A program made the position numbers and the translations under genes. From Hyphomicrobiaceae bacterium (GTDB lineage Bacteria > Pseudomonadota > Alphaproteobacteria > Rhizobiales > Aestuariivirgaceae), in NCBI GenBank assembly GCA_900298995.1, contig OMIC01000004.1, positions 1 to 38,557 of the forward strand: a stretch of DNA of 38,557 nucleotides, read 5' to 3'. Below are positions 11,931 to 19,565 of the stretch, one piece after another (the stretch's first letter is position 1; each line of letters starts with the position of its first letter). The notes under the pieces were generated by a model. The model worked only from the letters and a program-made list of their open reading frames with translations. It ran no database searches and was not told the DNA's origin.

Positions 11931-13325
11931 TCAGACGGTGCCCTGGCGCCGGATGCGGTGTGAGACGTTCTTGATGACCTTGTCGGCCAGCTCCGAGTTG
12001 GTGACGCTGATCAGTCCGCCGTCGTCGCTGCGGATGCGTGTCGAGCGCATGCCGATATCCTCGATGGTGCCGGACAACCCGCTGGATTCGATGGTGTCGC
12101 CCACCTTGATGGAAGCATCGAGAAACAGGATCACACCTGCCAGGATGTTCTCGAGCGTCGGTTTCGCGGCGAGCGCGAAGGCGAGGCCGCCGACACCGAA
12201 GCCCGCGATGATGCCGTAGACCGGAACACCTGCCGCGCTGATGCCATAGATGATGACTGCGAGGGCTGACATCACCGACACGACCCGCGTTGCGAGCCGG
12301 ACGATGCTGGTGTCGAAGGTCTTGTCCTTTGCCTGCTGGATTGCCGAGACCCAGTTTCCGGCCCATTCACCGGCAATCAGGATGCACACGACGATGGCGC
12401 CGTTGTGGAGGGCAAGAAACACCAGTGTCATCACCGTCGCGCCGCCGCCCGACAGGCCTGCCTGATCGATCACCACGCCGGAGGCATGGTTGGCGAGCAG
12501 TCCTGTGGTCGCCGCCTGGCTGAACCAGCGCAGGCTGCGCGAGCCGATGAACCTGCTCACAAGCGGCGGGATGAGCAGAACGGCCACCAGGATCAACATC
12601 GTGATCAGCCACTGGAAAATTGTATTGGAGCCCAGTTCCCAGCGGAGGAAATCCGGCAGCTTGTGCGCAACGCCCGCCCAGCGCGGCGGTTCCAGGCCGC
12701 CGGGCGTCTCGGTAAAATAGCGATAGGCGTTGAAGCCATCACCGACCCGGCTTGCGCCGCTGATCTGGTAGAGTGACGGCACGTTCGCCACCGTTTCGGC
12801 CGTGAAAACGACATCGCCCATGCGGATGCCGGAGGCGATCATGCCAACCTGGACATAGGTGCCGGGTATCACCCACAGTCCGTCACGCAGCTGCTTGAAG
12901 GGCGTGTTTGCCGTGACGTTTTCGCGACGGAAGATCTCGCGCAGCATGAGCGCCGTCTCGAGGCCGGCAGATTCGCGGCGCCAGTCCGGGAAGGCCGTCA
13001 GATCCATCGAGTCGAGAATCTGCTCCTTGAGGAGCGTGAGTTCGGCGGACTCGGCTTCCGTCGTGGGAGGATAGAGCCAGGCATCCTCGAGCTGGCGGGC
13101 CTGTTCGCGGGCTTCGAGATGCGCAACGCTGCGCTCCACGGCGGCGAGGAATGTCTTCAGATGATGTTCCGGGGTCGAGCGGTCGACCGTCAGGTCAGTG
13201 TAGAATGCTGCATCGGCTTCTGCGCGGACAGGCGCAACGGCAAGCGCTGACCACAGGAACAGAATGGCCCCGAGTGCGCCCAGCACGGGCCTGCCCAATC
13301 TTGCATACCGGATCATCTTCCGCAT
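11931..13325 (-). CDS. MscS-family mechanosensitive channel, lacking the C-terminal cage domain
   Basis: The product is 464 residues. A signal-like N-terminus (about 12-35) is followed by a periplasmic domain of some 200 residues (helical, then VIPGTYVQVGMIASGIRMGDVVF). Transmembrane segments lie about 237-258, 296-320 and 340-364, then the pore helix and MscS beta-domain: VYGIIAGFGVGGLAFALAAK, NILAGVILFLDASIKVGDTI, GTIEDIGMRSTRIRSDDG and VTNSELADKVIKNVSHR. MscS proteins normally continue here with an alpha/beta C-terminal domain of about 80-100 residues; this one stops ten residues after the beta-domain. The other two frames downstream do not restore that domain, so a simple frameshift is unlikely. 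It starts 44 bases behind the cyclic-nucleotide/ZIP gene and is presumably co-transcribed with it. The alternative start is 13316. Confidence 0.85.
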   Translation of the reverse strand: MRKMIRYARLGRPVLGALGAILFLWSALAVAPVRAEADAAFYTDLTVDRSTPEHHLKTFLAAVERSVAHLEAREQARQLEDAWLYPPTTEAESAELTLLKEQILDSMDLTAFPDWRRESAGLETALMLREIFRRENVTANTPFKQLRDGLWVIPGTYVQVGMIASGIRMGDVVFTAETVANVPSLYQISGASRVGDGFNAYRYFTETPGGLEPPRWAGVAHKLPDFLRWELGSNTIFQWLITMLILVAVLLIPPLVSRFIGSRSLRWFSQAATTGLLANHASGVVIDQAGLSGGGATVMTLVFLALHNGAIVVCILIAGEWAGNWVSAIQQAKDKTFDTSIVRLATRVVSVMSALAVIIYGISAAGVPVYGIIAGFGVGGLAFALAAKPTLENILAGVILFLDASIKVGDTIESSGLSGTIEDIGMRSTRIRSDDGGLISVTNSELADKVIKNVSHRIRRQGTV

Positions 13326-13369: not shown

Positions 13370-14770
13370 CTACGCGGATGCTCTGGTGTAATCAAGCCGG
13401 TGACCCGTGATGACCGGTTGCATCCCTTCCTCATGGTATCCCGACGAAGTGGTGCCCGGCTCGGTTTTGCGCATCTGTGCCTCCTCGATTGCGAGGTAGA
13501 GCGCGAAGAGGAAGCCCAGAACGACAGGCATCACCGAGATCGAACCGCCCTTGTGGATGGCCTCGGGGATCATGGCATGGCTCACCATGGCGAGAATGGC
13601 GCCCGCGGCTATCGCCTGCATGACGATGGCGAAGAGCGAATCCGGGTCGCTGATGAACAGCTTGCCAGCGATGGCCGAGACAACGCCCGCGAGGATCACG
13701 GTGGACCACATGCGGTAGACCGCCGCCGTCGAATAGCCGGCCCTTTTCAGAAGGGTGGCACTCGCGGCGGATTCCGGGATTCCGCCCAGGAACATGCCCA
13801 CCATCAGCGTGGCCGACATGTTGTCGAAGCTGGAGAACTTGGCGCCGATGACCAGGCAGCCGGGGATGGTGTCGAGGATGTTGCCGAAGATGATGGCGAG
13901 GCCGATGCCCTTGCCCTTGCTGACCTCCGCAGTCTCGCCCGGCATCCCGCTCTTGCCCTGTGCCGCATGATAGATGCGCGCCCACAGCGAGTGATCTGCG
14001 TTCGAGCCTTTCAGGTTGGCCAGAGAGCGTTTGCGGGCCAGTTCGTGAATTTCGCCTCTCAGCGCCTCGTCCTTCTCGGCGAGAAGCTCGAACCCGGCCT
14101 TGTCGATTTCTAGAAAGGTGGCTGCGCCGGAGGCGATCACGGTGGCGCTGCGGCGGCGGCCGTCGATCAGCGCCATTTCGCCGAAGACCTCACCCGGGCC
14201 GAGTGTGGCCAGTGCATGGCCATTGGTATCCTCCACATCGACGCTGCCCTCGACGATGATGTGGAGCGTGTCACCGCTGTCACCCGCGCGGAAAATCGTG
14301 TCGCCTGCCTGGTGCTGCCTGGTTTGCATGTGCGGGAGCAGCAGCTTGAGGTCATCGGGATTGAGATGCTTGAGCAGCGCGCATTTGGCCAGCATGCCGA
14401 TGCGGGCGTCGGCGGGCTTGGTCGCCGTCAGCCGCGTGTATTCCATCAGGCGGCGGCGGAAGCGCAGCGCTGCGCCGTGGGATTCGAGGAACACCGACGC
14501 GACATAATAGATGATCGCTCCCAGCGCGAAGCCACTGGCCATGGTGATCCATGCCAAGCGCAGGCCGAATCCTTGGGTCAGGAGGGCCTCGGCCCCGTCA
14601 TAGGATAAATCGATTGCAAGAGCGGCGATGAGCGAACCTGCGGCAAAGGCCAGTATGCCCGACAGCAGGCGTTCTGGCAGCGAATAGAACAGGCCGACAT
14701 AGGCGCCGATCAGCACTGACATGGTGGTGAACAGGCCCACGAGGCCGACGGCAAGGATCTCATAGGTCAA
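13370..14770 (-). CDS. ZIP-like metal transporter interrupted by a cyclic-nucleotide-binding domain
   Basis: The protein has 466 residues in three parts. Residues 1-95 hold three membrane helices with the ZIP-like AFAAGSLIAALAIDL. Residues about 125-245 are a complete cNMP-binding domain; its phosphate-binding cassette is FGEMALIDGRRRSATV (196-211) with the key Glu198 and Arg207. Residues 288-432 hold the remaining helices: GLAIIFGNILDTIPG, FLGGIPESAASATLLKRAG and MVSHAMIPEAIHKGG, matching ZIP helices 4, 5 and after. The domain therefore replaces the variable cytosolic loop between helices 3 and 4. By eye, the metal-site histidines of canonical helices 4 and 5 (HN..E and HE.PE) read GN..D and GG.PE. 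The start is TTG at 14770, since an in-frame stop lies just upstream and GGGGA precedes it. Role: probably a nucleotide-gated transporter; substrate uncertain. Confidence 0.8.
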   Translation of the reverse strand: MTYEILAVGLVGLFTTMSVLIGAYVGLFYSLPERLLSGILAFAAGSLIAALAIDLSYDGAEALLTQGFGLRLAWITMASGFALGAIIYYVASVFLESHGAALRFRRRLMEYTRLTATKPADARIGMLAKCALLKHLNPDDLKLLLPHMQTRQHQAGDTIFRAGDSGDTLHIIVEGSVDVEDTNGHALATLGPGEVFGEMALIDGRRRSATVIASGAATFLEIDKAGFELLAEKDEALRGEIHELARKRSLANLKGSNADHSLWARIYHAAQGKSGMPGETAEVSKGKGIGLAIIFGNILDTIPGCLVIGAKFSSFDNMSATLMVGMFLGGIPESAASATLLKRAGYSTAAVYRMWSTVILAGVVSAIAGKLFISDPDSLFAIVMQAIAAGAILAMVSHAMIPEAIHKGGSISVMPVVLGFLFALYLAIEEAQMRKTEPGTTSSGYHEEGMQPVITGHRLDYTRASA

Positions 14771-14789: not shown

Positions 14790-14814
14790 GCTCAAACCAA
14801 GGATTCGCTTGAGC
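14790..14814. promoter_or_regulatory. inverted repeat upstream of the cNMP/ZIP gene
   Basis: GCTCAA (14790-14795) and TTGAGC (14809-14814) are perfect six-base arms separated by 13 bases. They sit 20-44 bases upstream of the TTG start, in the region where a regulator or leader structure could act. Short arms make chance possible. Confidence 0.25.
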
Positions 14815-14819
14815 AAAAG

Positions 14820-14855
14820 CCATCTTGTCCGATGAAGGCGTGCTTCACAAGATGG
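14820..14855 (-). terminator. likely Rho-independent terminator of usg
   Basis: On the minus strand the arms CCATCTTGT and ACAAGATGG form a nine-base perfect stem (complement of 14847-14855 and 14820-14828), with an inner GAAG/CTTC pair in the loop. The stem is followed at once by CTTTTG. It starts just after the usg stop, which fits a terminator separating usg from the transporter gene. The T-tract is short, so read-through is possible. Confidence 0.6.
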
Positions 14856-14860
14856 GGCGC

Positions 14861-15130
14861 TCAGTGCAGTGACCACTCGCCCCCGATGTGGCGGATGTCG
14901 AGAGGCCGCAGGATGCCCGCGTGCGCAACGCGCACCTCGGCCAACGGGCCATCAAGATTGTGGGCCCAGAAATCGAGAAACTTGATCAGGCGTGGAAAGT
15001 GCGGGGCGATGTCATAGTCCTGCCAGATGAAGCTTTGCAGCAGGTGCCGGTAATCCGGCATGCGATAGGTGATTTCGGCAGTGGTCAGGCTCCAGCCGTC
15101 CAGTTGCCGGGTGAAGTCCGTGTCCTGCAT
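14861..15130 (-). CDS. usg: Usg family protein
   Basis: This small soluble protein of 89 residues occurs in alphaproteobacteria; the name comes from a gene near trp genes, and its function is unknown. Recognisable features are LTTAEITYRMPDYRHLLQSF, the aromatic-rich WQDYDIAPHFPRLIKFLDFW and LDGPLAEVRVAH. The ATG at 15130 was chosen over 15148 and 15190 because GAGGAGG sits six bases before it. Upstream, 15195-15235 is strikingly AT-rich for this window (it contains AATATATTAG) and probably holds the promoter. A hairpin terminator lies at 14820-14855. Confidence 0.85.
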   Translation of the reverse strand: MQDTDFTRQLDGWSLTTAEITYRMPDYRHLLQSFIWQDYDIAPHFPRLIKFLDFWAHNLDGPLAEVRVAHAGILRPLDIRHIGGEWSLH

Positions 15131-15632: not shown

Positions 15633-16865
15633 TCAGGCGGGGGCGAAGCGCGTCGCGCGCTGCTCGCGGATCGGCAGATGCACGATGAAGGCGAAGACGC
15701 CCAGCGCGACGCTGAGCCACCACACGATGTCATAGGAGCCGTACTGGTCATAGAGCCGCCCGCCCAGCCAGACGCCGAGGAAGGAGCCCAGCTGATGGCT
15801 CACGAACACGAATCCATAGAGAGTCGCCATGTAGCGTGTGCCGAACATCACCGTCACCAGTCCCATGGTGAGAGGCACGGTCGAGAGCCACAGGAGGCCC
15901 ATGGAAATGGTGAAGGCCAGGGTGGTGAGGTTGCTCACCGGCAGCAGCACGAAAGCCGCGACGATGCCCGAGCGCAGGAGATAGATGAAGGCAAGGGGCA
16001 CATGCTTCTGGTGGCGTCCGCCGATGATCCCTGCGGCGTAGGAACCGATGACGTTGAACAGCCCGATGAGTCCCATGGCGAAACCGGCGAATTCCTTCGA
16101 GATGCCATGCTCCGTCAGGTAGGGAGGCATGTGAACGACGATGAAGGCGAGCTGGAAGCCGCAGACGAAGAACCCCGATACCAGCAGCAGGTAGGAGCCA
16201 TGACCGAAGGCTGTGCCGATCGCCTGGCGCATGGTGAGGTCGGCCTCGCCTGCGGTGCGTGGCGCCGAGGAGGTATTCTGGATCATCAGCGGACTGGCGA
16301 ACAGGATGATCAGAAGGGAGAGCCCGGCCAGTATGATGAGCGCGTTCTGCCAGCCATAGGCCGAGATCAGGGCCGCGCCCAGCGGTGCGAAGATGAACTG
16401 CCCCATCGAGCCTGAGGCCGTGGCGATGCCGAAGGCCCAGCTCCGCCGCTCCGGAGGCACGATGCGCCCGAGTGCCGCCATGACGATCGAGAAAGAGGAG
16501 AAGGCAACGCCGACGCCTACCAGAAGCCCGCCGCCCACATTGAACATGAACGGTGTCTCGGTGAAGGCCATCATCAGCACGCCGATGCAGTAGATCACCG
16601 CACCGGCCATCAGCACGCGCGCCGAGCCGTAGCGATCGGCCAGCATTCCGGCCACGGGGGTCGCAAGGCCCCAGACCAGGTTGTGTACCGCCATGGCGAA
16701 GGAGAAGATCTCGCGTGGCCAGCCATGTGCGTCCGAGATCGGCACGGTAAAGAAGCCGAAGGTGGAGCGCACGCCGAAATTGACGATCGCCACGAGACAG
16801 CCTGCAACGATCAGGGCCGTCGTCGTCTGATACCAGGAGAGGGCGCGGGAGGCTGGTGTGCTCAT
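15633..16865 (-). CDS. MFS transporter, OFA/monocarboxylate-like
   Basis: This 410-residue inner-membrane protein has about twelve helices. The N-terminal half shows FGVRSTFGFFTVPISDAHGW followed by GLATPVAGMLADRYGSARVL (MFS motif A position), a pattern common in bacterial relatives of monocarboxylate and oxalate:formate transporters. The C-terminal half has SHQLGSFLGVWLGGRLYDQYG. Its ATG at 16865 overlaps the stop of the fused DMT gene by four bases (ATGA), so the two are translationally coupled. Substrate unknown; organic acids are a family-based guess. Confidence 0.87.
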   Translation of the reverse strand: MSTPASRALSWYQTTTALIVAGCLVAIVNFGVRSTFGFFTVPISDAHGWPREIFSFAMAVHNLVWGLATPVAGMLADRYGSARVLMAGAVIYCIGVLMMAFTETPFMFNVGGGLLVGVGVAFSSFSIVMAALGRIVPPERRSWAFGIATASGSMGQFIFAPLGAALISAYGWQNALIILAGLSLLIILFASPLMIQNTSSAPRTAGEADLTMRQAIGTAFGHGSYLLLVSGFFVCGFQLAFIVVHMPPYLTEHGISKEFAGFAMGLIGLFNVIGSYAAGIIGGRHQKHVPLAFIYLLRSGIVAAFVLLPVSNLTTLAFTISMGLLWLSTVPLTMGLVTVMFGTRYMATLYGFVFVSHQLGSFLGVWLGGRLYDQYGSYDIVWWLSVALGVFAFIVHLPIREQRATRFAPA

Positions 16866-18667
16866 CCCGCTTCCCTAACCGGGCCGGTGTCGTCGTTCAA
16901 ACGCGTTCTCTGCATGCGGGGTCCGAACTGGGCGATGGCAACGCCCAGGATGATCATCCCGCCGCCTGCCAGCAGCGGCCAGGTGAGTTGCTCGCCGAGA
17001 AGCAGCATGCCCCCCAGCGCCGCCACCACCGGCTGGACATAGAGGAAGACACCGGCGACCGCGCTTTCCATCCTGGACAGTCCGAAATTCCAGGCCGCCG
17101 TTGATAGAAAGGTTCCGAAGACCACAACGAAGCCCACGGCGAGCCAGTCGGTGGCGTCCATGCCAGCTAGCGCGAGCGGGAAAGCGGGCGTCACGAAGAT
17201 CGGCATCGGCAGGGCCGAGATGGCCATGGCGAGGCAGGCCACCGGCAATGCGCCATATTTCTGCGTGGAGGGCCGGATCACCACCGTGTAGATGCCCCAG
17301 CCCATGGTCGAGAGCGTCACCAGCACCAGCCCGAGCAGCGAGACATCACCCGATGGCGTGAGCGTGCTGCCCAGCATCAGGGCAGCCGTACCGAGCACCG
17401 CCACGCAGAGCCCGGCGATCAGCCAGCCGGTCAGGCGTTCGCCGGTGAGCAGCACGGCGAACAGCGCGATGAACACCGGCTCGAGACCAAACAGCAGGCC
17501 GGTCCAGCTGGCCGGCACGCTTTGCATGCCATAGGCCGCGAGGATCTGATAGCCGAGATTGCCGGCGAGGCTGGCAATGGCGATGCGCAGCCAGTGGCGC
17601 CAGGCGATCGGCCTCACACCCGTGAACAGCACGACGACCGCCGCCAGAAGTCCTGCCGGATAGAGCCGCAGCACCATCGCCGTCTGGGGCGAGAGTTCAG
17701 TGATCAGATGGCGCATGGCGACGGGGATCAGTCCCCACATGGTGACCGCGAACAGAACCGCTGCGAGTGCCGCGAGCCGGCCGCTCATCTTCATTCGCCC
17801 GCCGAACTGCGCCACCGCTACGCCGGTGAGGATCAGGCCGCCGCCGATTACCATGCCCGGTGTCACCCGTTCGCCCAGCATCAGCGCGCCCGCCAACACG
17901 CCGATGGGCGGCACCAGATAGAGGAAGGCGCCCGCCGCCGCGGCTGGCAGCCGTGCGGAGCCATAGTTCCACGTCACCATGGTGAGCGCCGTCACGAACA
18001 CCACGAGATAGGCCATTTCCAGCCACAGGCGCGGGGTCATCTCCGCAAGGGTCGTGAGCGTTGCGGGCCGGCCAAGCAGCAGCACCAGCGCCAGCGAGGT
18101 GATGACCACCGACAGCGCCGTCGTGGGCAGCGAGCCATAGCGTTGCGCCAGCGGCTTGCTGGCCACCGCATAGATCGCCCAGCAGGTGCCCGAGACGAAG
18201 ATCATGGCGCAGCCCGTGAGGAACTGCAGGGGCTCGCCCGTCATGCCGAGGTCATTCCAGACGAGGAACACGATGCCGGCAAAGCCGATGGCCAGCCCCG
18301 CCGTTGTGGCGGGGGTCAGGCGCTCGCCGGCAGCGAGCGTGCCGATGAGCGCGATGAGCAGCGGCTGGGTGCCGATGATGAGGCTCCCTGTTCCGGCGTT
18401 GATGCGCTCGAAGCCGAAGGCCGAGCCAAGATTATAGGCCGTGAACCCGGCGAGCGAGACGAACAGCATGCGCGGCCAGTCGCGCCGCGCGATGCGCCAG
18501 CCGCCCGTCGTCACCAGCACGATCAGGAACAGCACGCCGACCAGGGCATAGCGGATAGCGAGGTGATCGGCCGGGCCCAGCGCCAGCGACAGCGAGCGGA
18601 AGAACACGGGGCTCACGCCCCACACGATCATGGTGAAGAGCAGGGCGAGAATTGCGGGGAACTGCAT
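16862..18667 (-). CDS. double EamA/DMT transporter: two complete ten-helix units fused in one protein
   Basis: The 601-residue frame contains two full drug/metabolite transporter units, four EamA domains and about twenty helices. Unit 1 (1-291) begins MQFPAILALLFTMIVWGVSP and ends GVAVAQFGGR; unit 2 (292-601) begins MKMSGRLAALAAVLFAVTMW and ends GVAIAQFGPRMQ. There is no linker: the end of one unit runs directly into what looks like the start of the next, with ATG codons at 17794 and 17788. Most family members have about 300 residues, so this looks like two adjacent genes joined by loss of a stop codon. Internal initiation giving a separate 310-residue second protein is possible, but no strong ribosome site is seen. 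The gene starts four bases behind the third DMT gene. Likely an exporter of metabolites or amino acids; substrate unknown. Confidence 0.85.
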   Translation of the reverse strand: MQFPAILALLFTMIVWGVSPVFFRSLSLALGPADHLAIRYALVGVLFLIVLVTTGGWRIARRDWPRMLFVSLAGFTAYNLGSAFGFERINAGTGSLIIGTQPLLIALIGTLAAGERLTPATTAGLAIGFAGIVFLVWNDLGMTGEPLQFLTGCAMIFVSGTCWAIYAVASKPLAQRYGSLPTTALSVVITSLALVLLLGRPATLTTLAEMTPRLWLEMAYLVVFVTALTMVTWNYGSARLPAAAAGAFLYLVPPIGVLAGALMLGERVTPGMVIGGGLILTGVAVAQFGGRMKMSGRLAALAAVLFAVTMWGLIPVAMRHLITELSPQTAMVLRLYPAGLLAAVVVLFTGVRPIAWRHWLRIAIASLAGNLGYQILAAYGMQSVPASWTGLLFGLEPVFIALFAVLLTGERLTGWLIAGLCVAVLGTAALMLGSTLTPSGDVSLLGLVLVTLSTMGWGIYTVVIRPSTQKYGALPVACLAMAISALPMPIFVTPAFPLALAGMDATDWLAVGFVVVFGTFLSTAAWNFGLSRMESAVAGVFLYVQPVVAALGGMLLLGEQLTWPLLAGGGMIILGVAIAQFGPRMQRTRLNDDTGPVREAG

Positions 18668-18671
18668 CGCG

Positions 18672-19565
18672 TCAGCGCCGCGCGAGCTTCGGGCCGAACT
18701 GCACGGCGGCCACGCCCGCGAGCATGATGAGGCCGCCCGCCACCACATGTACGGTCACCTGCTCGCCGAGCATCAGCGCGCCGGCCGCCACCGCCACCAC
18801 CGGGATGATATAGAGGAACGATCCCACGGCCGTGCTCGGGAGATGTGCGGCGCCATAGTTCCACAGCATCGTGCCGCCGAGCCCCGTCGCCGTCACCAGA
18901 TAGGCGACCTCCAGCCACTGCCGGGCGTCGAGCCGCAGAGCCAGCCGGGGCAGGGGTTCGCTGGCCAGCCCGAGCATCAGGGGTGCTGCGATGAGCATGG
19001 TCACCGCCGTCACGGTGAAGCTGCTGTGGCGCGTGAGCAGCGGCTTGGTGGCGATGGTGTAGATGGCCCAGCCGAGGCAGCACAGCACGAGATAGATGAT
19101 GCCGCGGCCCGGCACCGCCTGCGGCGTTGCGGCGGTGATGTCGGGCCAGAACAGCACCAGCGAGCCCATGATCGCGATTGCCACTCCGGCCAGCACATGT
19201 CGGTTGAGTTTCTCGCCCAGCACCAGTGCCGCCAGCAGGGCGATCATCAGCGGCTCGATCATGGTGACGAGCGTACCCACCCCGGCGGGCACCAGTTCGA
19301 AGCCGGCATTCACGAACCAGTTGTAGCCAGCCATGCCTGCGAGGCCTGCGATCAGGAAGCGTGGCCAGTCCCGGCGCGGAATGCGCCAGCCGCCGGTCCA
19401 CGCCAGTCCCGCGGCATTGATCGCCGTCAGGAACACATAGCGCATGGCGAGCGAGTTTTCCGGGCTGAGCGACAGCGCCAGCGTGCGCATGAACACGGGC
19501 GAACAGCCCCACAGCACCATGGCGGCGGTGAGGGCGAGGACGGCGCGTGTGCGGGTGCTGGGCAT
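18672..19565 (-). CDS. EamA/DMT family transporter
   Basis: This 297-residue inner-membrane protein has ten helices in two EamA repeats. It starts MPSTRTRAVLALTAAMVLWG and ends GVAAVQFGPKLARR. It shares the loop GGWRIPRRDWPRFL with unit 1 of the next gene (GGWRIARRDWPRML), and all three units end in GVA..QFG, so they arose by tandem duplication. An in-frame TTG at 19616 would add 17 residues with no family counterpart; the ATG at 19565 gives the normal length. It is the first gene of the DMT / double DMT / MFS / small protein operon and is divergent from the TPR gene at 19664. Confidence 0.87.
   Translation of the reverse strand: MPSTRTRAVLALTAAMVLWGCSPVFMRTLALSLSPENSLAMRYVFLTAINAAGLAWTGGWRIPRRDWPRFLIAGLAGMAGYNWFVNAGFELVPAGVGTLVTMIEPLMIALLAALVLGEKLNRHVLAGVAIAIMGSLVLFWPDITAATPQAVPGRGIIYLVLCCLGWAIYTIATKPLLTRHSSFTVTAVTMLIAAPLMLGLASEPLPRLALRLDARQWLEVAYLVTATGLGGTMLWNYGAAHLPSTAVGSFLYIIPVVAVAAGALMLGEQVTVHVVAGGLIMLAGVAAVQFGPKLARR

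Follow-up and report, generated by a model that had tools for sequence, protein, structure and literature searches.

Can a membrane protein of the ZIP fold be placed under the direct control of a cyclic nucleotide? The question is raised by a gene at 13370..14770 (minus strand) of the window, the 38,557-nucleotide contig OMIC01000004.1 of a Hyphomicrobiaceae bacterium (assembly GCA_900298995.1). The gene, defined by its open reading frame, Pfam matches and relatives, encodes 466 aa from a TTG start codon; an aligned TTG is also present in the relative L033. According to Pfam, profile searches and an AlphaFold2 model, three ZIP-type helices are followed by one cyclic-nucleotide-binding domain (cNBD) and then by C-terminal ZIP helices. 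An initial annotation had read this protein as a ligand-gated ZIP with an altered metal site.

ZIP helices 1-3 occupy residues 2-97 (14480..14767, minus strand, as are all features of the gene), the cNBD residues 124-250 (14021..14401) and the C-terminal ZIP helices residues 287-436 (13463..13912). A basic linker with 7 K/R and 2 D/E residues (residues 98-123; 14402..14479) leads from helix 3 into the cNBD, and its composition is consistent with a cytosolic insert; a second linker (residues 251-286; 13913..14020) leads out of it. The AlphaFold2 model (mean pLDDT 71.8) contains helices 2-28, 33-65 and 70-97, a beta-roll domain, and helices 287-311, 320-343, 348-372 and 379-436, the last of which is read as helices 7 and 8 modelled as a single run. 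Residues 99-119, 250-288 and 437-466 have pLDDT below 50, so that both linkers are of low confidence. The model and the common insertion point of 22 proteins bear out the initial placement of the insert between helices 3 and 4. Since 22 distinct proteins share the layout, an assembly or frameshift artefact is ruled out.

The ZIP-like membrane domain proposed initially is confirmed as homologous to known ZIPs. Pfam Zip matches with an E-value of 1.8e-7 (best stretch 276-424), at 31.2 bits, short of the curated 35.1. A profile of the C-terminal half, built from 14 relatives, finds BbZIP, the ZIP of Bordetella bronchiseptica, among PDB sequences (best E 7.4e-10); five of the six PDB sequences listed are BbZIP, and the sixth is a non-ZIP protein (E 0.028). 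Aligned by hhalign with ordinary ZIPs, the N-terminal half gives E 5.9e-6 and the whole length of the window subclade E 6e-6, each with a probability of 85%; in the latter alignment the cNBD is taken up by gaps. The comparison of a predicted structure with the bacterial ZIP, suggested at the outset, gave a divided answer: the helix layout fits the three plus five helices of a ZIP and its loop from helix 3 to helix 4, but the fold matches to BbZIP are not significant. With the C-terminal-half model (pLDDT 65.8), BbZIP takes Foldseek ranks 1-6 at E 0.38-1.2. The full model is uninformative on the ZIP part, since each of the best 50 among its 1036 PDB matches (E up to 10) is a cNBD protein. The sequence profile is the stronger evidence of kinship with BbZIP. 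A search of the window genome for the Zip family returned this gene and one very weak place (E 0.045, internal stop).

The cNBD is regular. Pfam cNMP_binding matches residues 151-233 with an E-value of 3.3e-21, its 75.5 bits exceeding the curated cut-off of 27.5, and PDB sequence and fold searches place the domain nearest to solved domains of the PKA, PKG and MlotiK1 types, with 34-37% identity to MlotiK1 among the fold matches listed. Its phosphate-binding cassette, FGEMALIDGRRRSATV (residues 196-213; 14132..14185), is intact, with Glu198 and Arg207 present as initially described. The cassette Glu and Arg are kept in 20/22 insert-bearing proteins (19/21 tabulated, and L165). Tandem cNBDs, in the same loop as in the window protein, are seen in L113 (1540-3531, minus strand) and L140 (1495-3330, minus strand); all four of these domains lack the cassette Glu, Arg or both. 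Nucleotide binding is therefore not universal among the relatives, the insert being kept in L113 and L140 with degenerate cassettes. At E-values up to 10, the Pfam matches of the window protein are limited to cNMP_binding, Zip and, weakly, the CNNM cNBD (E 0.045); no channel pore domain is among them. PADLOC matched the cNBD part only, weakly and through five models of Pycsar effector cNBDs (E 2e-13 to 4e-5), and a reading as a defence system was rejected. One class III cyclase domain is encoded in the window genome, in a search covering class III.

A search for further ZIPs split by a cNBD, as the initial annotation had proposed, yielded 22 distinct insert-bearing proteins with a common insertion point, counting that of the window (the others are L033-L042, L113, L114, L133-L140 and L165). 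They come from Alphaproteobacteria, Cyanobacteria and one groundwater bacterium. In a scan of genome contigs, which used two short patterns, one of them within the cNBD, and so was not exhaustive, ten loci match over most of the query among the best 80 of 325 loci encoding a relative: one in Rhizobium sp. Q54 (57% identical), one in a groundwater bacterium and eight in Cyanobacteria. Genome surveys with the C-terminal-half profile, in which the insert type was assigned with a cNBD profile, show a patchy distribution within genera and families. Counting the window genome, matches were found in 12/372 genomes of the class (insert in 3), 9/297 of the order (insert in 2) and, at a stricter E limit, 4/299 of the window's own phylum (insert in 1). 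The family of G791 gave a match in 1/30 genomes, with insert, and the phylum of a Coleofasciculus genome matches in 18/244, with insert in nine and fragments only in three. Among 41 genomes (the window's own, 24 of its genus and 16 of its order), a full-length match is confined to the window genome and G019. In plasmid searches, no record contained 80% of either query at a single location. A branch annotated as ‘ZIP family zinc transporter’ is plasmid-borne at L152:2686-3429, L154:1662-2426, L155:1752-2453, L158:1671-2426 and L159:1668-2426.

Do the insert-bearing proteins descend from one insertion? In a tree of the ZIP part with 44 rows they did not form one clade (two changes; 0% of 200 bootstrap trees), and an extremely long ordinary row, L147, fell among them. 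After removal of the long branches L147, L118, L119 and L121 and the near-duplicates L037 and L138, the insert-bearing rows of the remaining 38 formed one clade (72/92; 68% of bootstrap trees), and so they did in the best tree, to which L165 and four more insert-less rows had been added (43 rows; 88/91; 90% of 200 bootstrap trees). A single insertion event is thus favoured by the trees, though not proven. Subclades of the best tree are the window protein with L033 and L165 (100/100), L034 with L113, L114 and L140 (96/98), and 13 cyanobacterial rows (100/100). Conservation between the window protein and L033 is highest in helices 4-8 (80% identical; dN 0.13, dS 0.65), followed by helices 1-3 (64%; dN 0.26, dS 1.06) and the cNBD (41%; dN 0.57, dS 1.50); the linkers are 26% and 31% identical. 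Because dS differs between the regions too, the contrast does not reflect selection on the protein alone.

The metal site sets the window subclade apart. The binuclear centre of BbZIP, as listed in the available part of PMC9873690, comprises M99, H177, N178, E181, Q207, D208, E211 and E240; the alignments pair these with L47, D300, T301, G304, G329, G330, E333 and G362 of the window protein, where, by that list, one residue of eight is identical (Glu333) and Asp300 replaces His177. Profile and multiple alignments locate the helix-4 site DTIPGC (residues 300-305; 13856..13873) in place of HNxPEG, the helix-5 site GGIPE (residues 329-333; 13772..13786) in place of QDVPE, and helix-7 HAMIPE (residues 398-403; 13562..13579), whose His398 aligns with BbZIP H275. 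Gly had initially been assigned to the metal-site His positions of both helices 4 and 5; this holds for helix 5 (Gly329, at the Gln207 position, which is His in 2/8 HN-type comparison rows), but the same alignments rule it out for helix 4, where Asp300 lies at His177. An altered site was nevertheless rightly proposed, and the change goes deeper than claimed: the E181, Q207, D208 and E240 positions are all Gly in 3/3 rows of the window subclade.

Residue counts over 43 rows, from which the six rows removed from the trees were also left out, show how these changes are distributed. The E181 position is Gly in 3/3 subclade rows and Glu in the other 40/40, the D208 position Gly in 3/3 and Asn in the other 40/40, and the two site glutamates are kept in 17/17 other insert-bearing rows. 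Asp occupies the H177 position in 33/33 rows of the branch (3 subclade, 17 other insert-bearing and 13 insert-less), and His in 8/8 HN-type ordinary rows; since Asp is also found in two other ordinary rows, it is not branch-specific. By the alignments, the larger site changes are those at the E181, N178, D208 and E240 positions. BbZIP S106 appears to take part in metal chelation in an outward-facing model, according to the accessible part of PMC9873690; the S106 position is acidic (Asp/Glu) in 32/33 branch rows and is Asp54 of helix 2 in the window protein (14609..14611). The H275 position is His in 3/3 subclade rows, and the E276 position is Ala there. DTIPGCLVIG and GGIPE are invariant in the three-member subclade alignment, and the unusual site looks maintained and not decaying. 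With one identical ligand of the eight listed, Asp300 and the outer Asp54, the cargo in the window subclade would therefore probably bypass the usual two-metal site. Likewise, in the plasmid-borne branch Asp replaces the helix-4 His, a helix-2 residue is acidic and E240 is missing, so that zinc as cargo is an assumption for that annotated branch too. Two features that define ZIPs are affected in the window protein: its Pfam score lies below the cut-off, and the HNxPEG motif with the binuclear-centre ligands is not found (DTIPGC). For these reasons it is classed as a divergent homologue of ZIPs, one with a regular cNBD, and not as a canonical ZIP metal transporter.

An MscS-like gene (11931-13325, minus strand; 464 aa; Pfam MS_channel_2nd, E 2e-18) starts 44 nt past the stop codon of the ZIP-cNBD gene, and an operon of the two is possible. 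A conserved operon with MscS is unsupported: ten neighbours were profiled across six loci with a homolog (L034, L037, L038, L039, L041 and L042), and none is an MscS, one of them, at L041, matching nothing; the neighbours of L165, L113, L114 and L033 were catalogued as open reading frames. Two cyanobacterial ZIP-cNBD genes have a divergently oriented DUF4126 gene upstream (L038:4974-5591 and L042:5122-5712, both minus strand). The stretch that separates the ZIP-cNBD gene of the window from the Usg-like gene contains, at 14790-14870 (minus strand), a perfect 9-bp inverted repeat and then a T-rich stretch; folding of this region is not unusual (z -1.22), and promoter and terminator scans gave values near chance. 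Elsewhere, 16862-18748 (minus strand) is a single 628-aa open reading frame with four EamA-type stretches, apparently a head-to-tail fusion of two EamA transporters.

How might the insert act? In the portion of PMC9873690 available, BbZIP helices 1/4/5/6 move against a scaffold of helices 2/3/7/8, and on metal removal the cytosolic end of helix 4 swings off helices 3 and 7. With helix 3 static and helix 4 moving, as described there for BbZIP, an insert between them would tie the fixed to the moving part and is therefore well placed for gating. Tethered in this way between scaffold and transport domain, the cNBD would shift its helices on binding nucleotide, most likely cAMP, and change the relation of helices 3 and 4; the shifted domain could then ease or impede the sliding of helix 4 along helix 3 and so switch transport on or off. 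That the protein is a ZIP-fold elevator under the control of a cytosolic cyclic nucleotide, most likely cAMP, is the reading to which we lean, by a little over an even judgement; it predicts that the domain binds cAMP, that binding gates the protein and that the cargo is a divalent cation. The shared insertion point, the formation of one clade, the basic first linker, the intact cassettes, the MlotiK1-like cNBD, the cyclase domain in the genome and the conserved helices 4-8 speak for a gated elevator; the sub-cut-off Zip score, the 1/8 site residues, the fast cNBD, L113 and L140, the first tree and the weakly modelled linkers speak against it. The more specific proposal, in which the gating cNBD lies across the hinge between scaffold and transport domain and the replaced two-metal site of the subclade serves a different cargo or a gated channel-like path, is tentative and rather unlikely.

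The loss from the subclade of the E181-position Glu that the other 40/40 rows keep, together with the MscS gene start 44 nt downstream on the same strand, would suit a transport-inactive ZIP turned receptor, whose membrane part is an anchor or a sensor of the membrane or of an ion, while the cNBD signals to a partner, for example the MscS-like channel. We consider this unlikely: membrane helices that are the best conserved part (80%) and site motifs that do not vary within the subclade would fit a new, active site, MscS is absent among the ten profiled neighbours, and the other insert-bearing rows retain two site glutamates (17/17). An ordinary constitutive transporter, in which gating has been lost and the cNBD serves structure or localisation, is quite unlikely given a cassette intact in 20/22 proteins and an insert spanning the elevator hinge (as described in the accessible part of PMC9873690), even though L113 and L140 hold degenerate cNBDs at the equal position and insert-less relatives share the branch signature without any regulator. 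Very unlikely, finally, is that the domain gates the protein in response to a ligand other than cAMP, whether a nucleoside or a cyclic nucleotide such as cGMP. In a trypanosome PKA, the cNBD binds nucleosides in place of cyclic nucleotides (PMC10959531, in the part available), and the weak PADLOC matches are to Pycsar effectors; the nearest solved domains, of PKA, PKG and MlotiK1 types, and the class III cyclase domain in the genome point the other way.

If the cNBD does gate a ZIP elevator, bacteria have direct and fast second-messenger control over this transporter fold, and an elevator state that can be set by added nucleotide would offer a direct test of ZIP motion. The conserved loss of residues from the transport site of one subclade would likewise reveal the extent to which a ZIP fold can leave two-metal chemistry behind.

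The initial annotation had asked whether the protein belongs to a well-described family. Other orders, and the Cyanobacteria, do have homologs, yet no description of a ZIP-cNBD fusion was found in the open-access literature, as represented by titles and the starts of abstracts (the best 10-20 of longer lists). A 2007 survey of 30 cNBD families gives, in the part available, a bacterial channel family of the mechanosensitive type, and ‘zip’ and ‘zinc’ are absent from its main text (PMC2246266). The cyclic-nucleotide terms sought are likewise absent from the available parts of two works on ZIPs, a preprint of 2026 (PMC13192868) and a pan-domain analysis (PMC5751234).

Among known systems, BbZIP (PDB 5TSA, 5TSB and 8CZJ) shares with the window protein homologous C-terminal helices, Glu at the E211 position and a loop between helices 3 and 4; it lacks a cNBD, and the window protein differs from it at 7/8 of the binuclear-centre residues listed in the accessible part of PMC9873690. 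The ‘ZIP family zinc transporter’ branch that lacks the insert (Deinococcus, Pantoea, Sphingomonas and Rhizobium plasmid records) likewise has Asp for His177, an acidic S106 position and no E240, but its members are of ~230-290 aa without a cNBD, with the E181 position occupied by Glu and the D208 position by Asn. The closest bacterial cNBD type among the matches listed is that of MlotiK1, a K+ channel gated by cyclic nucleotides. Its cNBD forms the C-terminus of the channel, whereas that of the window protein interrupts a ZIP-type domain. CNNM metal transporters and the SOS1 antiporter are also ion transporters with a cNBD-like domain, located after the membrane part, and their membrane folds are unrelated to ZIP. 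MscS-type channels with a cNBD (‘Channel_Bact’ in the available part of PMC2246266) are, like the window protein, fusions of a bacterial membrane transport protein with a cNBD; their membrane fold is unrelated, and the window encodes its MscS in a gene of its own, in which Pfam finds no cNBD.
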